A stretch of 64,000 nucleotides of DNA, from the NCBI GenBank assembly GCA_902826455.1, contig CADEEV010000007.1:1-64000 (forward strand), in the 5' to 3' direction. The DNA comes from an uncultured Acidobacteriota bacterium (GTDB taxonomy: Bacteria; Acidobacteriota; Vicinamibacteria; Fen-336). Shown piece by piece: positions 4,457-19,419 of this stretch (position 1 is its first letter; each line of letters opens with the position of its first letter). The translations under genes were made by a program, and so were the position numbers. Below the pieces are notes generated by a model. It searched no databases and was not told the DNA's origin. It saw only the letters and a list, made by a program, of their open reading frames with translations.

Positions 4457-5161
4457 GTGCAGGGAAGCTGTCCGCAGTGCTCGAGCAAGATCGCGATCGA
4501 CGACGCCAAGGTTCCCGATCGCTCGTTCCAGGTGAAGTGCCCGAAGTGCGGCAACCTGGTGCGGTTCCCGGGCCGCGCGCCTGAAGCCGCCGCGGCGGCG
4601 CCTGCACCGGCCTCCAGCGCCCCCGAGCCCGTTCCCGCGTCGACCCCGGCCGCGGGAGATGAAGAGATGCGGGCGCAGATGATGGCCCAGGTCCGGCGCG
4701 AGATGTCGCTGACCGAGGCCGTCGGGGGCGGCGGCCGCGCCCTCGTCCACCTCGGCGACAAGACCCAGGCCGGCGCCATCACCCTGAGCCTGTCCCGCCA
4801 GGGCTACCAGGTCGACACCTCCGACGACTCGGGCGAAGGCTCGCGGCTGATCGAGCAGGGCGTCTACGACCTCGTGGTCACCGCGCGCGTCGCCGGCTCG
4901 GTCGCGAAGGGCGAGAGCCTGTACCAGCGCCTGAACCGCCTCAATCCCGAGAGCCGCCGCCGGCTGTTCGTGGTGCTGGTCGGCGACGAGTTCAAGACCG
5001 GCGACGGGACCCAGGCCTGGTCGTGCCTGGCCGACCTCGTGGTGAGCGCCCGCGACGCCGGCGCCGCCGACGCCGCGATCCGCAACGTGACCCAGGAGCG
5101 CCAGCGGCTGTTGCAGGCCTACACCGACGCTCGACGCCGGCACGAGGCCGCCGCGAACTAG
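4457..5161 (+). CDS. MJ0042-type zinc-ribbon protein with a receiver-like domain
   Basis: 234 residues starting at GTG. The first 40 residues are a zinc ribbon with two CxxC pairs (SCPQCSSKIAIDD and VKCPKCGNLVRF), as in MJ0042-family proteins. A proline/alanine linker follows, then from about residue 95 an alpha/beta domain (ALVHLGDKTQAGAITLSLSR, QGVYDLVVTARV, RRLFVVLVGDEF) that resembles a response-regulator receiver without an obvious phosphorylatable aspartate. It follows the PilT-like gene by four bases and is probably cotranslated with it, suggesting a link to pilus control or polar signalling. The function is not known. Confidence 0.75.
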   Translation: MQGSCPQCSSKIAIDDAKVPDRSFQVKCPKCGNLVRFPGRAPEAAAAAPAPASSAPEPVPASTPAAGDEEMRAQMMAQVRREMSLTEAVGGGGRALVHLGDKTQAGAITLSLSRQGYQVDTSDDSGEGSRLIEQGVYDLVVTARVAGSVAKGESLYQRLNRLNPESRRRLFVVLVGDEFKTGDGTQAWSCLADLVVSARDAGAADAAIRNVTQERQRLLQAYTDARRRHEAAAN

Positions 5162-5169
5162 CGCCGGGC

Positions 5170-5910
5170 CTAGCGGCGCACGGCCGCGGACACGGACTGA
5201 ACCAGCTCCCGCATCGCCTTGTCGTCGAGGCCGTTTCGTTCGCGGAGCCCACGGCGTTGTCCGGCTTCCACCCACGAGCGCCGCGCCGTCTCGTCGGCGG
5301 TTTCCACGTCGGTCGCGATGCGACGGGCGATGTCCTGCAGGCTCCCGCGAGCCGCCTCGCAACCCGTGACCTGCTGGTCCTCGCGCGTGCACTGTTCATG
5401 GTAGCGATTGCGCTTCTGCCGGAACTCGTCGGCCTGCGCCGCGAGCGCACTCAAGGCCGCCTGGAACTCGGCGACGCCGATCGCGCGCTGGGCCTCGATC
5501 GAATCGTCCGGAGTGGCCTGGGGCGCAGGCGTCGGCGGCACCTCGGCAGCCGCGGGGCTCGCGGCCTCGGTCTCGGGAACGGGTGTCGGCTCGATCGCGA
5601 GCGCCTTCCACGCCTCGGACAGCGTGCTCGGGGGAGCCTCGAGAGGCTCCCTGGCGACGGCGGAGCGGGCCGGAGCCGACGCCTGCGCCGGGGCCTTCGC
5701 CGTCACCGGCGGCTCCCAGCCGCCCTGCCACGCGAGAGCCCCACCCAGGACCAGCAGGCCGAACGCGATCGCGACGGCACGCGTCGTTCGCCTCGCGGGT
5801 ACGGTCGGCGCAGGCGTCCGGGTGTGCTTGTAACCGCAGTAGCACTCGCCGACTTTGGCCGGCACGCGCCGCAGGCAGATCGGACAGTCCCAGGATGGCG
5901 CCGCGGTCAC
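5170..5910 (-). CDS. Zinc-ribbon single-pass membrane protein, paralogue A
   Basis: 246 residues starting at GTG. The N-terminus is a short cytoplasmic zinc ribbon (DCPICLRRVPAKVGECYCGY: one CxxC and one CxC), followed by one transmembrane helix (AVAIAFGLLVLGGALAW, about residues 46-62), a Pro/Ala-rich linker, and a C-terminal alpha-helical domain containing WKALAIEP, QVTGCEAARGSLQDIARRI and RERNGLDD. It is 22 bases downstream of a clear paralogue (5933-6670) sharing the same architecture and motifs. There is no Shine-Dalgarno sequence; a -10-like TACACT ends five bases before the start. No known family recognised for the C-terminal domain. Confidence 0.75.
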   Translation of the reverse strand: MTAAPSWDCPICLRRVPAKVGECYCGYKHTRTPAPTVPARRTTRAVAIAFGLLVLGGALAWQGGWEPPVTAKAPAQASAPARSAVAREPLEAPPSTLSEAWKALAIEPTPVPETEAASPAAAEVPPTPAPQATPDDSIEAQRAIGVAEFQAALSALAAQADEFRQKRNRYHEQCTREDQQVTGCEAARGSLQDIARRIATDVETADETARRSWVEAGQRRGLRERNGLDDKAMRELVQSVSAAVRR

Positions 5911-11500: not shown

Positions 11501-12331
11501 CTAGAACAGTTGGTTGCGGCGGCCGAACGCGTCGATGTCGGGCCAGTAGTCCGCTCCGGGCAGGCCGTGGCCCTCGCCGGCATACACGACGTACGCGCTG
11601 CGCGCGCCCTGCTGGTGCAGCCTGTCGAGAACGCCGACGCAGACCCGGGTCGGCACCAGCCGGTCCTCGGCGCCCAGCAGCCACAGCGTCGGCACGTCCA
11701 GGGACTGAAGGACCGGCTCCGGGTCGTAGCCCGGCGTGCCCGAGAAACGGGCGAGCCGCGCGTAGGCGTCGTCGATGGGCAGGCTGCGGGCGTCCTCGTA
11801 GGCGATGTTGGCCCCGATCGTCATCACGGATCCGGTCACCGCGATCGCGAAGCGCGCCAGGGGCGTGCGCCGGGCGGCCTCGACCATCACCCAGCCGGCC
11901 TGGCTCGTGCCCATGAGGCCGAGGCGCGTCGGGTCGATTTCGGGGCGCGTCGCGAGGTAGCCGAGCGCCGCCGCCATGTCTCCCGCCAGCTCGGGGATCT
12001 GGGTGGCGCTGTTGGCCGCGGAGACGCCGCGATAGGTGCCACCCGAGGCCCCGGCTCCGCGCTTGTCGTAGCGCAGCACGGCGAAGCCGCGCTCGCGCAG
12101 GAACGGCACGTAGGCGGCGCCATCGCTCGTGGTCACCCGCCCCGAGCCATGGCCGATCACGACGGCGGGAAACGGCGGGGAGCCCGAGGGGTACTCGAGG
12201 ACGAAGCGCAGCCGGGCGCCGCTGCTCTCGAAGAAGTCCTCTTGCGTCGCGATCGCCCCGGGCCCGGCGGGGCCGTGGTCGCCGCAGCCGGTCGCGGCCA
12301 ACGCCAGGCACAACGCCACGATCCGGCTCAT
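11501..12331 (-). CDS. Alpha/beta hydrolase lipoprotein
   Basis: 276 residues. The N-terminus MSRIVALCLALAATGCGD is a lipoprotein signal with cysteine at position 16. The core is an alpha/beta hydrolase: oxyanion region PAVVIGHGSG, LRYDKRGAGASGGTYRG, the nucleophile elbow LGLMGTSQAGW (G-T-S-Q-A-G rather than plain GxSxG spacing), LWLLGAEDRLVP for the acidic residue and AGEGHGLPG for the histidine. It resembles dienelactone hydrolase/prolyl-oligopeptidase-like esterases. Its start overlaps the stop of the upstream lipoprotein gene (ATGA), so the two are coupled. Substrate unknown. Confidence 0.85.
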   Translation of the reverse strand: MSRIVALCLALAATGCGDHGPAGPGAIATQEDFFESSGARLRFVLEYPSGSPPFPAVVIGHGSGRVTTSDGAAYVPFLRERGFAVLRYDKRGAGASGGTYRGVSAANSATQIPELAGDMAAALGYLATRPEIDPTRLGLMGTSQAGWVMVEAARRTPLARFAIAVTGSVMTIGANIAYEDARSLPIDDAYARLARFSGTPGYDPEPVLQSLDVPTLWLLGAEDRLVPTRVCVGVLDRLHQQGARSAYVVYAGEGHGLPGADYWPDIDAFGRRNQLF

Positions 12332-13215
12332 GGGCGCGTGTAGCGGCCGTCGAAGATGAAGCGCCACGTCTGGCCCCCGTCGGACGTGCTCTCCGCGTAG
12401 AAGTGGATCGTCTGGGCATCGAGAGGATCCCATATCCAGCGCTCGCCGGCCCGCTCCAGCACCATGCGCCGGCCGTCGCGGCCTCCGACGAGCACGATGC
12501 GGCTGCCGCGGGAGTCGATGTACGTCTGGTGCCAGCGGCCGTCGCTGCGGCTGAACAGGCTGACGCTGCGGCCCTGGACGCCGGTGGGGTCGCGATAGTG
12601 CTCCTCGACGAGACAGCCGCGGCCTTCCTTCGTGATCTCGTTCGTGGCGCCGGACCCCGCGCCTTCCGTGTAGCTCCAGGACCCCAGCCAGAAGTCGAAC
12701 TCGCGGTCCTGGCTCGACCCGCACGCGCTGCGCGGCCCCGTCCAACGCACGCCGTAGGTTCCGCCGCCGGGAACGGTGGCGTCCGTCAGCGGCTCCCAGG
12801 TCGCTCCGGCCCCGAGCACGTGCAGGCGCAGGTCGCTCTCGGGCACTCCGGAAGGCCCGTTGCCGGCGTCGAAGCGCAGCGTCAGCCGGGCCGGGATCGC
12901 GAACGCCAGGCCGGCCGGGAGGATCTCGTAGCCCGAGCCCTGGACGAAGTGCGGGTCGAGAGGAAGCGCGCTCGCGGCACGGATCGTGATCCCGGTCGCG
13001 GCCGTCAGCGCGTTCGCGGGAATGACGAGGCTCACAGCGCCGCCGAAGGCCGTCACCGAGCCCCCTTCCGGTCCCACCGTGGCGTCGGGGGCCGGCGGGG
13101 GCGTCGGTGTGGGTGCCGGCGTCGAGGGTCCGGCCGGCGAACCGCCGCCGCAGGCGCAGAGCCCGGCGAGCAGCGACAGCGTAGCGAAGCGCCCGAGCGA
13201 CCTGGAGATCATCAT
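12328..13215 (-). CDS. Lipoprotein with ZU5-like and DFWLGSW domains
   Basis: 295 residues from ATG 13215 (two adjacent ATGs). The signal MISRSLGRFATLSLLAGLCACGGGS ends in a lipobox cysteine, then a Pro/Thr linker. Next comes a ZU5-like stretch (TVGPEGGSVTAFGGAVSLVI ... PANALTAATGITI) and a C-terminal half with REFDFWLGSWSY, a motif seen in DUF1579-like secreted proteins, and WHQTYIDSRGSRIVL. A -10-like AACCTT (13227-13222) ends only six bases before the ATG and there is no Shine-Dalgarno sequence, so the mRNA is probably leaderless. A 32-bp repeat element lies at 13249-13280. It is translationally coupled to the hydrolase downstream. Confidence 0.78.
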   Translation of the reverse strand: MMISRSLGRFATLSLLAGLCACGGGSPAGPSTPAPTPTPPPAPDATVGPEGGSVTAFGGAVSLVIPANALTAATGITIRAASALPLDPHFVQGSGYEILPAGLAFAIPARLTLRFDAGNGPSGVPESDLRLHVLGAGATWEPLTDATVPGGGTYGVRWTGPRSACGSSQDREFDFWLGSWSYTEGAGSGATNEITKEGRGCLVEEHYRDPTGVQGRSVSLFSRSDGRWHQTYIDSRGSRIVLVGGRDGRRMVLERAGERWIWDPLDAQTIHFYAESTSDGGQTWRFIFDGRYTRP

Positions 13216-13248
13216 GCTCGCAAGGTTGGGGCGGCGCGGCCCGCCACG

Positions 13249-13280
13249 CCATGGCGCGGGCATGGAATGGAGGTGGAGTC
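13249..13280 (-). promoter_or_regulatory. 11-bp-phased direct-repeat operator, copy 1
   Basis: The plus strand has ATGG at 13251 and 13262 and GTGG at 13273, again 11 bases apart. The element lies 21 bases upstream of a -10-like AACCTT (13222-13227), the same spacing as copy 2, before the lipoprotein gene starting at 13215. Confidence 0.6.
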
Positions 13281-13321
13281 GGAAGCCGTTGCCGGTCTTC
13301 CACTTGTCGGCCTCGATGGAG

Positions 13322-13789
13322 CTACGGGAGGACGTTCGGCGTGCCTTGCTTGATCCCCGCCCAGCTCTCCCGCACGCGGCAGGCAGGAGCCGGCGGCGTT
13401 CCCAGGGCGCGATCGATGTCGATGCGCACCGGTACCTCGAAGCCCGTGGCCGTGAAGCGTCCGGTGTCGAACGTGCTGACGACCGGGGCGCCTCCTTCCG
13501 TTCCCGTCCGTGTCGCCGGGATCGTGAACGCGCCGCCCGGCTCTACCCGGCCGGGCAGGTCGTTGAACGAGTCGTTGAGCACGAAGCTCGCCGAGCCCGG
13601 ATCGTGGCGCACGCGTGCCGTGAAGGCGAACGTGCGGATCGCCCCGCCGCAGGCGTCCTCGAGCACCGTCTTCGTGAGCCCGTAGGTGCCGCCCACGCTG
13701 ATCCCCGACGGCGGCGCCGCCGGGCTCGACCCTCCACAGCCCGCGACCGCCGCGGCGAATGCCGCCGCACTCCAGATCCGCCGTGTCAT
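13322..13789 (-). CDS. Small secreted lipoprotein, unknown function
   Basis: 155 residues starting at the ATG preceded by GGGAGGG. MTRRIWSAAAFAAAVAGCGGSS is a lipoprotein signal with cysteine at position 18. The mature part contains GTYGLTKTVLEDACGG, two further cysteines (ACGG and ACRV) that may pair, and a beta-rich body (TFAFTARVRHDPGSASFVL). No family recognised. The gene ends about 100 bases before the ZU5-type lipoprotein gene on the same strand. It shares with that gene an upstream 11-bp-phased repeat (13852-13883) located at the same distance from its -10-like TAGCCT, so both are likely controlled by one regulator, possibly the divergent gene at 13987. Confidence 0.75.
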   Translation of the reverse strand: MTRRIWSAAAFAAAVAGCGGSSPAAPPSGISVGGTYGLTKTVLEDACGGAIRTFAFTARVRHDPGSASFVLNDSFNDLPGRVEPGGAFTIPATRTGTEGGAPVVSTFDTGRFTATGFEVPVRIDIDRALGTPPAPACRVRESWAGIKQGTPNVLP

Positions 13790-13824
13790 GTCCGCCCTCC
13801 CTCGTGCCTCCGGGCACGCGCACC

Positions 13825-13830
13825 AGGCTA
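13825..13830 (-). promoter_or_regulatory. -10-like element of lipoprotein gene 13322-13789
   Basis: TAGCCT on the minus strand, 21 bases downstream of operator copy 2. It predicts a start near 13818 and a leader of about 29 bases holding the GGGAGGG ribosome site. Confidence 0.4.
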
Positions 13831-13851
13831 GCGCCCCGGGAGCGCCCGCCA

Positions 13852-13883
13852 CCATGGCGCCGGGATGGAATCGGCATGGAGTC
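13852..13883 (-). promoter_or_regulatory. 11-bp-phased direct-repeat operator, copy 2
   Basis: On the minus strand three CCAT units begin exactly 11 bases apart (plus-strand ATGG at 13854, 13865 and 13876). The element resembles copy 1 over about 47 bases. It lies 21 bases upstream of the -10-like TAGCCT of the lipoprotein gene 13322-13789, and 104 bases before the winged-helix regulator gene. Confidence 0.6.
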
Positions 13884-13971
13884 ACAAGCCCTTGGCCCGC
13901 GCGTCGTTGGCCGTCCCCCTGAATTGCTCGTTCGAGGCCAGATTGGGGGCTCTCGCCGAGGAGGCCACGGA

Positions 13972-13986: not shown

Positions 13987-16047
13987 ATGGCACAGGCGAG
14001 CGGGGGCCTTCCGCTTCCGGAACCGCACGGCGGGGGCGCTCCGGAAGCGCGGGTGCTGCGCTTCGGCGTGTTCGAGCTGGAGCCCGGGAGCGGCGCGCTG
14101 CGCAAGGCCGGCGTCCTCGTCAAGCTGAGGCAGCAGCCGGCGAAGGTGCTCGCCTTCCTCGCCGCGCGGCCCGGCCAGGTGGTCACCCGCGAGCTGCTGC
14201 AGACCCAGGTGTGGGGCGGCGACACCTTCGTCGACTTCGAGCAGGGTCTCAACTACTGCATCAAGGAGATCCGGGCGGCGCTCTCCGATTCCGCCGAGAC
14301 GCCGCTCTACGTCGAGACGCTGCCGCGCCGTGGCTACCGGTTCATCGCGCCGGTCGAGGGCCTGACCCAGACGCCATCGACGCCGCCCGCGGCGCGACGC
14401 TGGCCCATCGTGGCCGCCGTCAGCGTCGCGGTCCTGGCGCTCGCGGCCGCCGCGTACTTCGCCACGCGACGGGCCCCCGAGCCCCTCGACTGGCAGCGCG
14501 TGACGTTCCGGCGCGGCGCCCTCTCCGCGGCGCGCTTTGCTCCCGGCGGCGAGGTGGTGTTCTCGGCGGCCTGGGACGGCGGGCCAGGAGCGCTGTACGC
14601 CATGCGGCCGGGCACTCCCGACGCCCGGCAGGTCAGCGATCGCCCGGTGCGCCTCGTCAGCGTCTCGGAGCGCGGGGAGGTCGCGTATCTCGACCCGCGG
14701 CCGGGCGTGCTGCCGGCGCTGGCCCGCGCGCCGCTCGCGGGGGGCGCGCCCAAGGCCCTGCTCGACAACGTGATCGCCGCCGACGGCCGCGCGGACGGCG
14801 CCGCGTTCGCCGTGGCCCACCTCGTGGCGGGCGAGGGCTTCCGCATCGAGTATCCCGTCGGCCAGGTGCTGGCCCGCGTGAACGCGCCGAGCGACCTGCG
14901 GATCGCCCCGGACGGCTCGGCGGTGGCCTTCATCGAGCACCCGCGCACGGGCGACGACATGGGCTACGTCGCGATCCTCGACACCGCGGGCAAGGGCCTC
15001 GCGTACTCGGCGACGTACCCGAGCGCCGAGGGCCTCGCCTGGTCGCCCGACGGCCGCGAGGTGTGGTTCACCGCCGCGCGCTCCGGCGGCTCCCTGGCGC
15101 TGCGCGCCCTCGATCGCCGCGGCCGGGAGCGAACCCTGCTGCCGGCGAGCGGACGCCTCGTGCTCCACGACGTGTCCCCGACCGGCGAGCTGCTGCTCGA
15201 CCGGGCGGTGCTCCGTCTCGAGATCGGATTCGTCGGACGCGACGGGGTGACGCGCGACCTTCCGTGGTTCGACGCTCCCCAGGCCGCGAGCCTGTCGAGC
15301 GACGGCCGCACGCTGCTGTTCAACGAGAGCGGCGAGGCGGGCGGCCCGGGCTACGGCGTCTACCTGCGCGGCACCGACGGCGCCCTGCCGGTGCGCCTGG
15401 GCAGCGGCGTGCCGAGCTCGCTCACTCCGGACGGCCGTTTCGCCGTGGTCGTCCCTCTCGTGGATCCGGACCGCATCGACTTCGTGCCCACGGGTCCCGG
15501 GGAGACCCGCAGCCTGCGCTACGACGGCATCCACCAGTACGACTGGGCAGCCTTGACCCCCGACAGCTCCCAGGTCGTCTTCGTCGGCCGCGAGAAGGAG
15601 CACAACCTGCGGGTCTGGGTGGGGGCCCCGGACGGCGGAAAGCCGCGGCCGATCACGCCCGACGGGCTGATCGTCAACCGCGACACGATCTCCCCCGACG
15701 GCCGCCGGCTGATCGCCCGCTGCCGGCCCGGGCCGTTCTGCCTGTACCCGCTCGACGGCGGCGCGCCCCAGCCCCTGCCGCGCGTCGACGGCTTCGCGCC
15801 CATGGCCTGGGAGCCGTCGGGCCAGGCGCTCTACCTGAGGGCCGACGACGACCCGGGCCGCGTTCGCCTCGAGCGCTTCGACCTGCGCACCGGCGAGCGC
15901 CGGCCGTTCAAGGACGTCGGCGCGCGCGACCCGGTGGGCGTCAGGGGCATCGGGCGCGTGGTGTTGAGCCGCGACGGCAGCTCCCTCGCGTTCAACTACG
16001 CCCGCCGGCTCTCGGAGCTGTATCGGCTTCCCGGCCTCGTGCGGTGA
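13987..16047 (+). CDS. CadC/OmpR-type winged-helix regulator with membrane helix and PD40 beta-propeller
   Basis: 686 residues. Residues about 20-125 are an OmpR/PhoB-type winged helix (VLRFGVFELEPGSGALR, VVTRELLQTQVWGG, VETLPRRGYRFIAPVEGL). A transmembrane helix follows (IVAAVSVAVLALAAAAYF, about 140-157), then a large extracytoplasmic six- to seven-bladed WD40/PD40 propeller with repeated LAWSPDGREVWF-like units. This is the one-component membrane regulator plan common in acidobacteria. ATG 13987 is chosen because the winged helix begins shortly after; a -10-like TACAAT ends nine bases before it and no Shine-Dalgarno is present. Its stop overlaps the GTG of the DUF1295 gene. Targets may be the divergent lipoprotein genes, as judged from repeated operators. 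Confidence 0.9.
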   Translation: MAQASGGLPLPEPHGGGAPEARVLRFGVFELEPGSGALRKAGVLVKLRQQPAKVLAFLAARPGQVVTRELLQTQVWGGDTFVDFEQGLNYCIKEIRAALSDSAETPLYVETLPRRGYRFIAPVEGLTQTPSTPPAARRWPIVAAVSVAVLALAAAAYFATRRAPEPLDWQRVTFRRGALSAARFAPGGEVVFSAAWDGGPGALYAMRPGTPDARQVSDRPVRLVSVSERGEVAYLDPRPGVLPALARAPLAGGAPKALLDNVIAADGRADGAAFAVAHLVAGEGFRIEYPVGQVLARVNAPSDLRIAPDGSAVAFIEHPRTGDDMGYVAILDTAGKGLAYSATYPSAEGLAWSPDGREVWFTAARSGGSLALRALDRRGRERTLLPASGRLVLHDVSPTGELLLDRAVLRLEIGFVGRDGVTRDLPWFDAPQAASLSSDGRTLLFNESGEAGGPGYGVYLRGTDGALPVRLGSGVPSSLTPDGRFAVVVPLVDPDRIDFVPTGPGETRSLRYDGIHQYDWAALTPDSSQVVFVGREKEHNLRVWVGAPDGGKPRPITPDGLIVNRDTISPDGRRLIARCRPGPFCLYPLDGGAPQPLPRVDGFAPMAWEPSGQALYLRADDDPGRVRLERFDLRTGERRPFKDVGARDPVGVRGIGRVVLSRDGSSLAFNYARRLSELYRLPGLVR

Positions 16048-16977: not shown

Positions 16978-19419
16978 ATGGAGTCCTTCCTCGACGACCT
17001 GCGACTCGCCTGCCGCAGCCTGCGCAAGGCGCCGGCCTTCGCGCTCGTCGCGATCGCGACGCTCGCGCTCGGCATCGGCGTGAACACGGCGGTGTTCAGC
17101 CTGGTGGAGGGCCTGCTGCTGCGTCCGCTGCCGTTCCCCGACGCGGACCGCCTGGTGCGCGTGTACGAGACCCAGCCGGGCGAAGGCGAGCGCGCGGCAG
17201 CGCCCGCCAACTTCCTCGACTGGCGCCGGGACAGCCGCTCCTTCGACGGCCTCGCCGCGTATGTCGAGCGACGCCGCAACCTCCTCGCGGGCGACGAGCC
17301 GGAACAGATCGACGTGGCGTCGGTGAGCGCCAACTTCATCGGCGTCGTCGGGCTGCCCACCGCCCTCGGGCGCAGCTTCCGGCCCGGCGTCGAAGGCGAC
17401 AAGCCCGAGGCGATCCTGAGCCACGCGCTGTGGGTGCGGCGCTTCGGCTCCGACCCGGGCGTCGTGGGACGAACGGTGCGGATCGACGAGAACAGCTACG
17501 AGGTCGTGGGCGTCCTCGCGCCGAAGGCGGCGTTCCCCGACGACGCCGAGCTGTGGACGCGGGCGCCCCGAGACGTCCCCGAGGTCGGGCTGCCGATCGG
17601 GGCCGACCCCGCCAGCCTGCGCGATGCCCACTTCCTCGGCGTCGTGGGACGCCTCGTCGGCGGCGCGAGCCTCGGCTCGGCCCAGGCCGAGATGACGACG
17701 ATCGCCGCGCGCCTCGAGAAGGCTTACCCGGAAGAGAACGTGAAGTCCGGCATCCGCATCGTGGCGCTGCGCGACGACCTCGTGGGCCCCACGCGGCCGA
17801 CCCTCGCGCTCATGACCGGGGCCGTGGCGTTCGTGCTGCTCATCGCTCTCGTGAACGTGGCCGGGCTGCTGCTGGCCCGGGCCATGAAGCGCGGCCCCGA
17901 GATCGCGGTGCGCACGGCGCTCGGCGCGGGCCGCCGCCGCCTGGCCCAGCAGCTGTTCGCGGAGGGCCTGGTGCTCGCGGTCGCCGGCGCGACCCTCGGC
18001 GTCGGCCTCGCGGCGTGGGGCGTGCCGCTCCTGCGCTCGGCCCTTCCCGACGATCTCCCCGGCTTCGCGGCCTTCCGCATCGACCTGTCTGCACTCGCCT
18101 TCACCCTGGGGATCTCCATGCTCTCCGCGGTGCTCCTGAGCCTGCTCCCGCTGCTCGCGGCGCCCAGCGTCGCGCCGGCCCAGGCGCTGCGCGGCAACCG
18201 CACCGTCACGCTCTCGCGCACGCAGCAGCGCGTCCACGGCGGACTCGTGGCGAGCGAGCTCGCCCTGGCGGTCGTGCTCGTGGCCGGCACCGGCCTGCTC
18301 CTGAAGAGCCTGTGGCGCCTCGAGACCGCGGACGCCGGGCTCACCCGCGAGGCCGTGGTGACGTTCCGGGTGTCGCTGCCCGCCGCCCGCAGCCAGGAGC
18401 CCGCGCAGCGCAAGGCGTTCTACCAGGCCGTCGTGGACCGGGTCGAAGCGCTGCCGGGCGTCGCCCACGCGGCCGCGATCCAGACGCTCCCGTTCGCCGG
18501 CGGAGGCATCAGCGCCGGGCTCCGTGTCGAGAACCGCGGCTTCGCGCCGGGCGAGGAGGTCGACACCTCCTGGCGCGTCGTGACGCCCGGCTACTTCGCG
18601 ACCCTGGGCGTGCCCCTCGTGGGGGGCCGCGCCCTCGACTCCCGTGACGGCGCCACGGCGCCGACGGTCGCGGTCATCAACCGGACGCTCGCGCGCCGGC
18701 TGTGGCCCGATGCCGATCCCGTGGGGCACCGCATCGGGACCGGCATGGACGACGAGGGCGAGGGCGAGTCGTTCGTCACGGTGGTGGGCGTCGTGGGCGA
18801 CGTGCCGCAGCGCGGCGTCGCCGCCGGCGTCGCTCCCCAGATGTACCGGCCGCTCGCCCAGGAGACGCGCTTCGCCGCGGAGTCGATGAGCGTCGCGGTG
18901 CGCGTCACGGGCACTCCGGCGACGGTCGCGGGCAGCCTGCGCGAGGCGGTGCGCTCCGTGAACCCGCAGGCCCCGGTGTACGACATCAAGGGCCTCGACG
19001 AGCTGCGTCGCGCGACCACCTCGCGCGAGCGGGGCGCCGGCGCGGTGCTGGCGCTGTTCGGGTCCCTGGCCCTGATCCTGGCGGCGATCGGCCTCTACGG
19101 CGTCCTCAACTTCGTGGTGGGCGAGCGGCTGCGCGAGTTCGGCGTGCGGATGGCCCTCGGGGCGCGGCCCGTCGACATCCTCCGCCAGGTCCTGGGCGGC
19201 GGCCTGCGGCTGGTCGCGGTCGGCCTCGCCCTCGGCCTCGTCGCGGCCCTGGGTCTCGGCCGGTTCCTGGCCGGCCTGCTCTACGCGGTGCCGGCGTCGG
19301 ACGCGCCGACCCTCGCCGGCGTGGTGGTGCTCCTGGGGAGCGTCGCGCTGTTCGCGAGCTACCTGCCGGCGCGCCGCGCGGCCGGCGCCGACCCGATCCT
19401 GGCGCTGCGGCAGGAGTAG
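16978..19419 (+). CDS. Orphan MacB/FtsX-type permease (acidobacterial duplicated orphan permease family)
   Basis: 813 residues. The N-terminus DDLRLACRSLRKAPAFALVA and LALGIGVNTAVFSLVEGLLL, RPLPFPDADRLVRVYE are hallmarks of the ADOP family. Two FtsX modules are present: the first after residue about 275 (ALMTGAVAFVLLIALVNVAG), the second near the end (AIGLYGVLNFVVGERLREFG, RMALGARPVDILRQVLGGGL). A MacB-like periplasmic domain precedes each. No ABC ATPase gene is adjacent, which is usual for ADOPs. GGGAG lies about ten bases before the ATG. The family is greatly expanded in acidobacteria, so it serves as a lineage hint; its substrate is unknown. Confidence 0.92.
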   Translation: MESFLDDLRLACRSLRKAPAFALVAIATLALGIGVNTAVFSLVEGLLLRPLPFPDADRLVRVYETQPGEGERAAAPANFLDWRRDSRSFDGLAAYVERRRNLLAGDEPEQIDVASVSANFIGVVGLPTALGRSFRPGVEGDKPEAILSHALWVRRFGSDPGVVGRTVRIDENSYEVVGVLAPKAAFPDDAELWTRAPRDVPEVGLPIGADPASLRDAHFLGVVGRLVGGASLGSAQAEMTTIAARLEKAYPEENVKSGIRIVALRDDLVGPTRPTLALMTGAVAFVLLIALVNVAGLLLARAMKRGPEIAVRTALGAGRRRLAQQLFAEGLVLAVAGATLGVGLAAWGVPLLRSALPDDLPGFAAFRIDLSALAFTLGISMLSAVLLSLLPLLAAPSVAPAQALRGNRTVTLSRTQQRVHGGLVASELALAVVLVAGTGLLLKSLWRLETADAGLTREAVVTFRVSLPAARSQEPAQRKAFYQAVVDRVEALPGVAHAAAIQTLPFAGGGISAGLRVENRGFAPGEEVDTSWRVVTPGYFATLGVPLVGGRALDSRDGATAPTVAVINRTLARRLWPDADPVGHRIGTGMDDEGEGESFVTVVGVVGDVPQRGVAAGVAPQMYRPLAQETRFAAESMSVAVRVTGTPATVAGSLREAVRSVNPQAPVYDIKGLDELRRATTSRERGAGAVLALFGSLALILAAIGLYGVLNFVVGERLREFGVRMALGARPVDILRQVLGGGLRLVAVGLALGLVAALGLGRFLAGLLYAVPASDAPTLAGVVVLLGSVALFASYLPARRAAGADPILALRQE

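Follow-up and report, generated by a model that had tools for sequence, protein, structure and literature searches.

The tox-box of ToxR reads TNAAA-N5-TNAAA and has a 10-bp period (PMC8517210). For PhoP-type winged helices, 11-bp direct repeats are established, with TCACAGC-n4-TCACAGC in M. tuberculosis and repeats carrying GTTCACC in S. coelicolor (PMC9019756). A prokaryote-wide survey of transmembrane transcription regulators reported raised numbers in Acidobacteriae (PMC10269533). Winged-helix regulators that are tethered to the membrane and bear a propeller or TPR sensor are numerous in acidobacterial genomes; the winged helix was matched in 336 of the 396 genomes sampled from the phylum, with at least 12 matches in some of them. 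No paper on the binding sites of this acidobacterial family was found in the open-access literature, outside which subscription journals largely fall.

The locus described here lies in a 64,000-nucleotide stretch of DNA from an uncultured Acidobacteriota bacterium, the whole of which is referred to as the window. A direct-repeat search revealed two copies of a 43-bp sequence, 603 bp apart, that are identical at 34 of 43 positions without gaps and share the minus-strand consensus CAAnGGCTTnnGACTCCAnnnCnATTCCATnCCnGCGCCATGG (Table 1). Copy 2 lies in the divergent gap between lip2 and the regulator gene, whose ATG is 92 nt away. When the 6-kb region was dinucleotide-shuffled 60 times, the best pair of 43-mers reached 28 to 31 identities; shuffling the two intergenic regions gave 21 to 26. 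The repeat reported in the initial annotation upstream of two minus-strand lipoprotein genes is thus real and above every shuffle, but it spans 43 bp rather than 47. The three CCAT/CCAC units described for each copy were read in the sequence as claimed, starting at 13251/13262/13273 in copy 1 and 13854/13865/13876 in copy 2, in exact 11-base steps. As half-sites they give ...TCCAY/TCCAT/CCATGG on the minus strand and ATGG...ATGGA...RTGGAGTC on the plus strand. Both copies have the form of a PHO-box-like operator, i.e., 11-bp direct repeats of a unit of about 7 bp, and neither carries the ToxR pattern, the units being TCCAY/TCCAT/CCAT with an 11-bp period. In the interval that separates copy 2 from the start of the regulator gene, CCCCCTGAATTGCTCGTTCGA (window 13914-13935) is the fourth-best match of a two-unit model in the window and is possibly an extra half-site.

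Table 1. Candidate operators and neighboring genes (window coordinates)
Feature	Position	Strand	Description
Operator copy 1 (candidate)	13249..13291	-	CAACGGCTTCCGACTCCACCTCCATTCCATGCCCGCGCCATGG; three units, 11-bp period; lip1 ATG 33 nt downstream
Operator copy 2 (candidate)	13852..13894	-	CAAGGGCTTGTGACTCCATGCCGATTCCATCCCGGCGCCATGG; in divergent gap; 62 nt upstream of lip2 ATG
ToxR/CadC-like regulator	13987..16047	+	686 aa; winged helix (Trans_reg_C) 23-126, TM helix 140-160, beta-propeller 177-681 (PD40)
lip2	13322..13789	-	155-aa predicted lipoprotein (VAGC); lipobox from sequence; divergent from regulator; rare family
lip1	12328..13215	-	295-aa predicted lipoprotein; start taken as MMISRS; no Pfam family
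Alpha/beta hydrolase	11501..12331	-	Lipoprotein-type signal (ATGC); Pfam Peptidase_S9, Hydrolase_4

The gene beside copy 2 encodes a protein in which Pfam recognizes only Trans_reg_C and PD40. The PF00486 (Trans_reg_C) match covers residues 45-119 and scores 50.5 bits against a cut-off of 26.2. The N-terminal winged helix is closest to those of ToxR and CadC, which gave its best sequence matches in the PDB (2.2e-11 and 1.2e-8, respectively), and the receiver domain of two-component response regulators is absent by Pfam. An AlphaFold2 model built from ten homologues (mean pLDDT 83) places about 20 low-confidence residues ahead of the winged helix. The model gives the winged-helix and helix boundaries of Table 1, with residues 177-681 all beta, and the hydropathy peak falls at 141-159. 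A single transmembrane helix followed by an extracytoplasmic sensor domain is therefore predicted from the model, and the domain analysis, hydropathy, and model agree with the initial annotation, which had described a winged helix anchored to an extracytoplasmic propeller; the membrane topology is what we infer from them. GTDB genomes yielded no close relative of the regulator over its whole length. Winged-helix paralogues number at least 12 in the genome (17 matches in one scan, at least 12 in another). Downstream of the regulator and on the same strand lies a MacB/FtsX-type permease gene (window 16978-19419).

Lipoprotein-type signals were recognized by inspection in the products of lip1, lip2, and the hydrolase gene. 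The hydrolase gene overlaps lip1 by 4 nt, and the two are probably one operon. Confident members of the lip2 family occur in three genomes, with two copies in one of them, and three of the four members adjoin a winged-helix regulator gene (the window, G000:C22, and G002:C75); the member in G014 is not beside one. lip1 occurs elsewhere free of regulator linkage, and its paralogue at C51 is likewise not beside a regulator. The divergent gap between the lip2 paralogue and the regulator in G000:C22 (L018 1963-2071) is devoid of a CCAT array and contains an inverted AACCTAC...GTAGGTT pair.

The spacing of sites upstream of regulators of this family was explored by counting, for every distance in turn, how often the same 5-mer recurred in the roughly 220 bp ahead of the gene, relative to shuffles. 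In a discovery set of 46 regulators, lag 11 was the top distance among all those tested, with 35 pairs versus 15.0 in shuffles. The lag-11 test was then fixed, before the second set was fetched. The replication set of 72 new regulators gave 80 versus 25.7 (z 7.6), and a third, phylum-wide set of 22 gave 24 versus 6.9 at lag 11 and 22 versus 6.4 at lag 22. Pooling the three sets yielded 139 pairs versus 47.6 expected, and 126 versus 45 (z 8.2) were counted in the 130 regulators left once similar upstream regions had been removed. No excess was observed for 227 other genes taken from these loci and related ones (77 versus 101 expected) or for 91 intergenic control genes (28 versus 35.5). Upstream of a non-regulator gene, L181 carries tandem GACTCCC repeats at about 5000-5222 (+), and these heptanucleotide repeats may feed a 7/14/21-bp signal in control genes. 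An individually significant 11-bp array (p <= 0.05) was found in only 29 of 118 regulators, compared with 5 to 10 for other distances. Clear examples are CATGAAG/CCTGAAG/GCTGAAG in L187, GATGAGC/GCTGAGG/GATGAGC in L280, and GATGAGA/GATGAAA/GATGAA in L284. These data point to an 11-bp tandem-site architecture, often with a TGA core, at the acidobacterial winged-helix regulator family.

A model of three tied 11-bp units, obtained by expectation maximization (EM) and trained without the window, learned a TGA-centered unit, and 31 of its 35 high-scoring sites are oriented with the regulator gene. In the held-out window, copies 1 and 2 ranked 5th and 17th of 127,936 33-mers. A period of 12 outscored 11 in these models but took in most sequences (gamma 0.92), and we read it as codon periodicity. 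Under cross-validation a single shared unit matrix generalized only weakly (p 0.007 and 5e-5); with matrices from half the data the window copies ranked just 45th to 343rd. This indicates that the spacing is common while the unit sequence varies. One universal matrix was dropped for this reason, and the claim made here is of a common spacing, not a common sequence.

Scanning 40 genomes with three CTGAR-N6 units returned 37 matches, eight of them at regulators of the window type, including one (G003:C96) assigned by position. Two of the eight, in G011 and G013, lie between the homologue of the window regulator and a TonB-dependent receptor gene, and the match at G035:C1:1898298 marks a regulator outside the training set. 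In G011 and G013, a perfect CTGAG-type 11-bp triplet directly follows the stop codon of the homologue (L240 1501-1527 and L241 1501-1527); in G011 the TonB-dependent-receptor-like gene comes next and is a possible target there. Perfect CTGAG 11-bp triplets also stand at the starts of HxlR-like genes in G003 and G002 (L235 1037-1063 and L237 1501-1527). These genes adjoin TonB-dependent-receptor-like genes, and no winged-helix regulator lies within either locus.

The recognition helix of the window regulator, EQGLNYCIKEIR, was compared with those of 169 winged-helix hits. The closest, at 11 of 12 residues, is EQGLNYCIKELR of L164, a regulator in genome G015 that belongs to another family and has a different sensor; L162 of G014 (EQGLNYCVKEVR) and a few more follow at 10 of 12. 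Upstream of L164, GAATCCATGTGGAATCCATCCCGGC is identical at 21 of 25 positions to the core of copy 2, GACTCCATGCCGATTCCATCCCGGC. Among 140 regulator upstream regions L164 matched this core best, the second reaching 16 of 25 and the best of 227 controls 17. The resemblance of L162 and L164 was first spotted by eye, and the helix and DNA rankings were then made independently and unbiased. The site at L162 matches less well than that of L164. Two perfect matches to ATGGANTNNNSATGGANTC, copy 2 and the L164 site, were returned from 40 genomes, the pattern having been drawn from those two. Upstream, the L164 and L162 regulators face a TonB-dependent-receptor-like gene, and it is on this side that their site lies. 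Since both regulators have TPR sensors and not a propeller, the shared site goes with the DNA-binding domain rather than with the sensor. Regulators of G003 and G010, whose winged helices are closer overall (68-69% identity), have a GATGAGT/CTGAGG pair and no ATGGA-type site, and no similar array turned up when the regions ahead of 16 homologous regulator genes were searched for CCAT triplets, other units being present there. Apparent resemblances noticed by eye at L075 and L086 were not taken as significant.

The distribution of the repeat was assessed with a sequence-only model of both copies run against the whole 5.26-Mb genome. Both copies were recovered (E 1.1e-9 and 2.0e-9), and the third-best match (E 0.93) is inside a coding region of the ORF list. 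Looser patterns gave match counts close to chance. The copies could serve as operators of a different DNA-binding protein, whether a winged-helix paralogue or an unrelated regulator, with the adjacent gene there by coincidence or as a fellow target. The number of paralogues and the indirect assignment of binding to the neighbor leave some room for this, but the genome has no further copy, and the same site precedes the gene of the other-family regulator whose recognition helix comes closest. We consider this explanation improbable.

Less credible still is a core promoter or leader shared by the two lipoprotein genes through a short duplication and acting with no dedicated regulator. The distances to the start codons (33-62 nt) and the fact that both genes encode lipoproteins would fit such an element. 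However, a sigma-70 promoter scan and a terminator search at the copies found none, RNA structure within them did not exceed that of shuffles, the conserved blocks recur with the 11-bp period, and the remaining lipoprotein promoters of the genome lack the repeat. The -10-like hexamers that had been proposed downstream of the copies did not hold up, AACCTT (13222-13227) agreeing with TATAAT at 2 of 6 positions and TAGCCT (13825-13830) at 3 of 6, with no sigma-70-like site. The genes behind the two copies are non-homologous, and the repeat therefore does not stem from a duplicated gene. Two similar copies 603 bp apart might also suggest a dispersed repeat or the remnant of a mobile element, the outcome that would have spoken against the initial annotation, but this is very improbable, since the genome-wide scan found exactly two copies, both upstream of genes, and the similar site in the other family likewise lies upstream of a regulator.

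Our preferred reading, to which we assign a probability of roughly 80%, is that both copies are three-half-site operators of the regulator encoded at 13987-16047. Binding by this regulator is what we infer, and the same holds for the sign of regulation, autoregulation, and the signal. The proposal that the regulator binds the 11-bp repeats gains support from the lag-11 excess in three sets with none in controls, from the L164 site, from the uniqueness of the site to this locus in the genome, and from the regulator linkage of the lip2 family; the proposed control of the two lipoproteins is extended here by the hydrolase gene as a likely target. The likely targets are then three lipoprotein genes in two units, lip2 and lip1-hydrolase. 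Winged-helix monomers of the tethered regulator would line up head to tail along one face of the DNA helix, each on one of the three half-sites. Copy 2, from its place in the divergent gap, may serve both lip2 and the regulator gene, and copy 1 would act before lip1 and the overlapping hydrolase gene. A signal at the extracytoplasmic propeller would alter occupancy and thereby change transcription of lip2 and lip1-hydrolase.

Beyond this locus, it seems somewhat more probable than otherwise that acidobacterial ToxR-like regulators share one operator grammar, in which half-sites follow one another head to tail every 11 bp, usually in the direction of the regulator gene, and carry a (C/A)TGA(G/A) core whose sequence shifts with the recognition helix. 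Examples are NFCIRQIR with ATGAGT/CTGAGT and NYCIKE with ATGGANTC. If true, sequence could be used to predict operators and possibly regulons across a large regulator family. A candidate operator, a matching protein, and a family-wide 11-bp spacing together make a poorly known regulator class testable and offer a starting point for a helix-to-site code.

Compared with described systems, the window regulator belongs to the same general class as the proteins of the prokaryote-wide survey, the main text of which does not mention PD40/TolB-type sensors such as the one found here (PMC10269533). With PhoB/PhoP-type response regulators and their PHO boxes it shares the winged helix and the 11-bp direct repeats, and it differs from them in its membrane tether, in the absence of a receiver domain, and in the unit sequence. 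The likeness to ToxR/CadC-like transmembrane one-component regulators extends to an OmpR-type winged helix at the N terminus that carries the wing motif P(K/R)RGY, the single transmembrane helix, the extracytoplasmic sensor, and a direct-repeat operator, which is putative here. It differs from these in having a beta-propeller sensor (TPR in L162 and L164) and three units with an 11-bp period. What appears to be new is thus a putative 11-bp variant of known direct-repeat operators, with three units in the window, at an acidobacterial regulator family.
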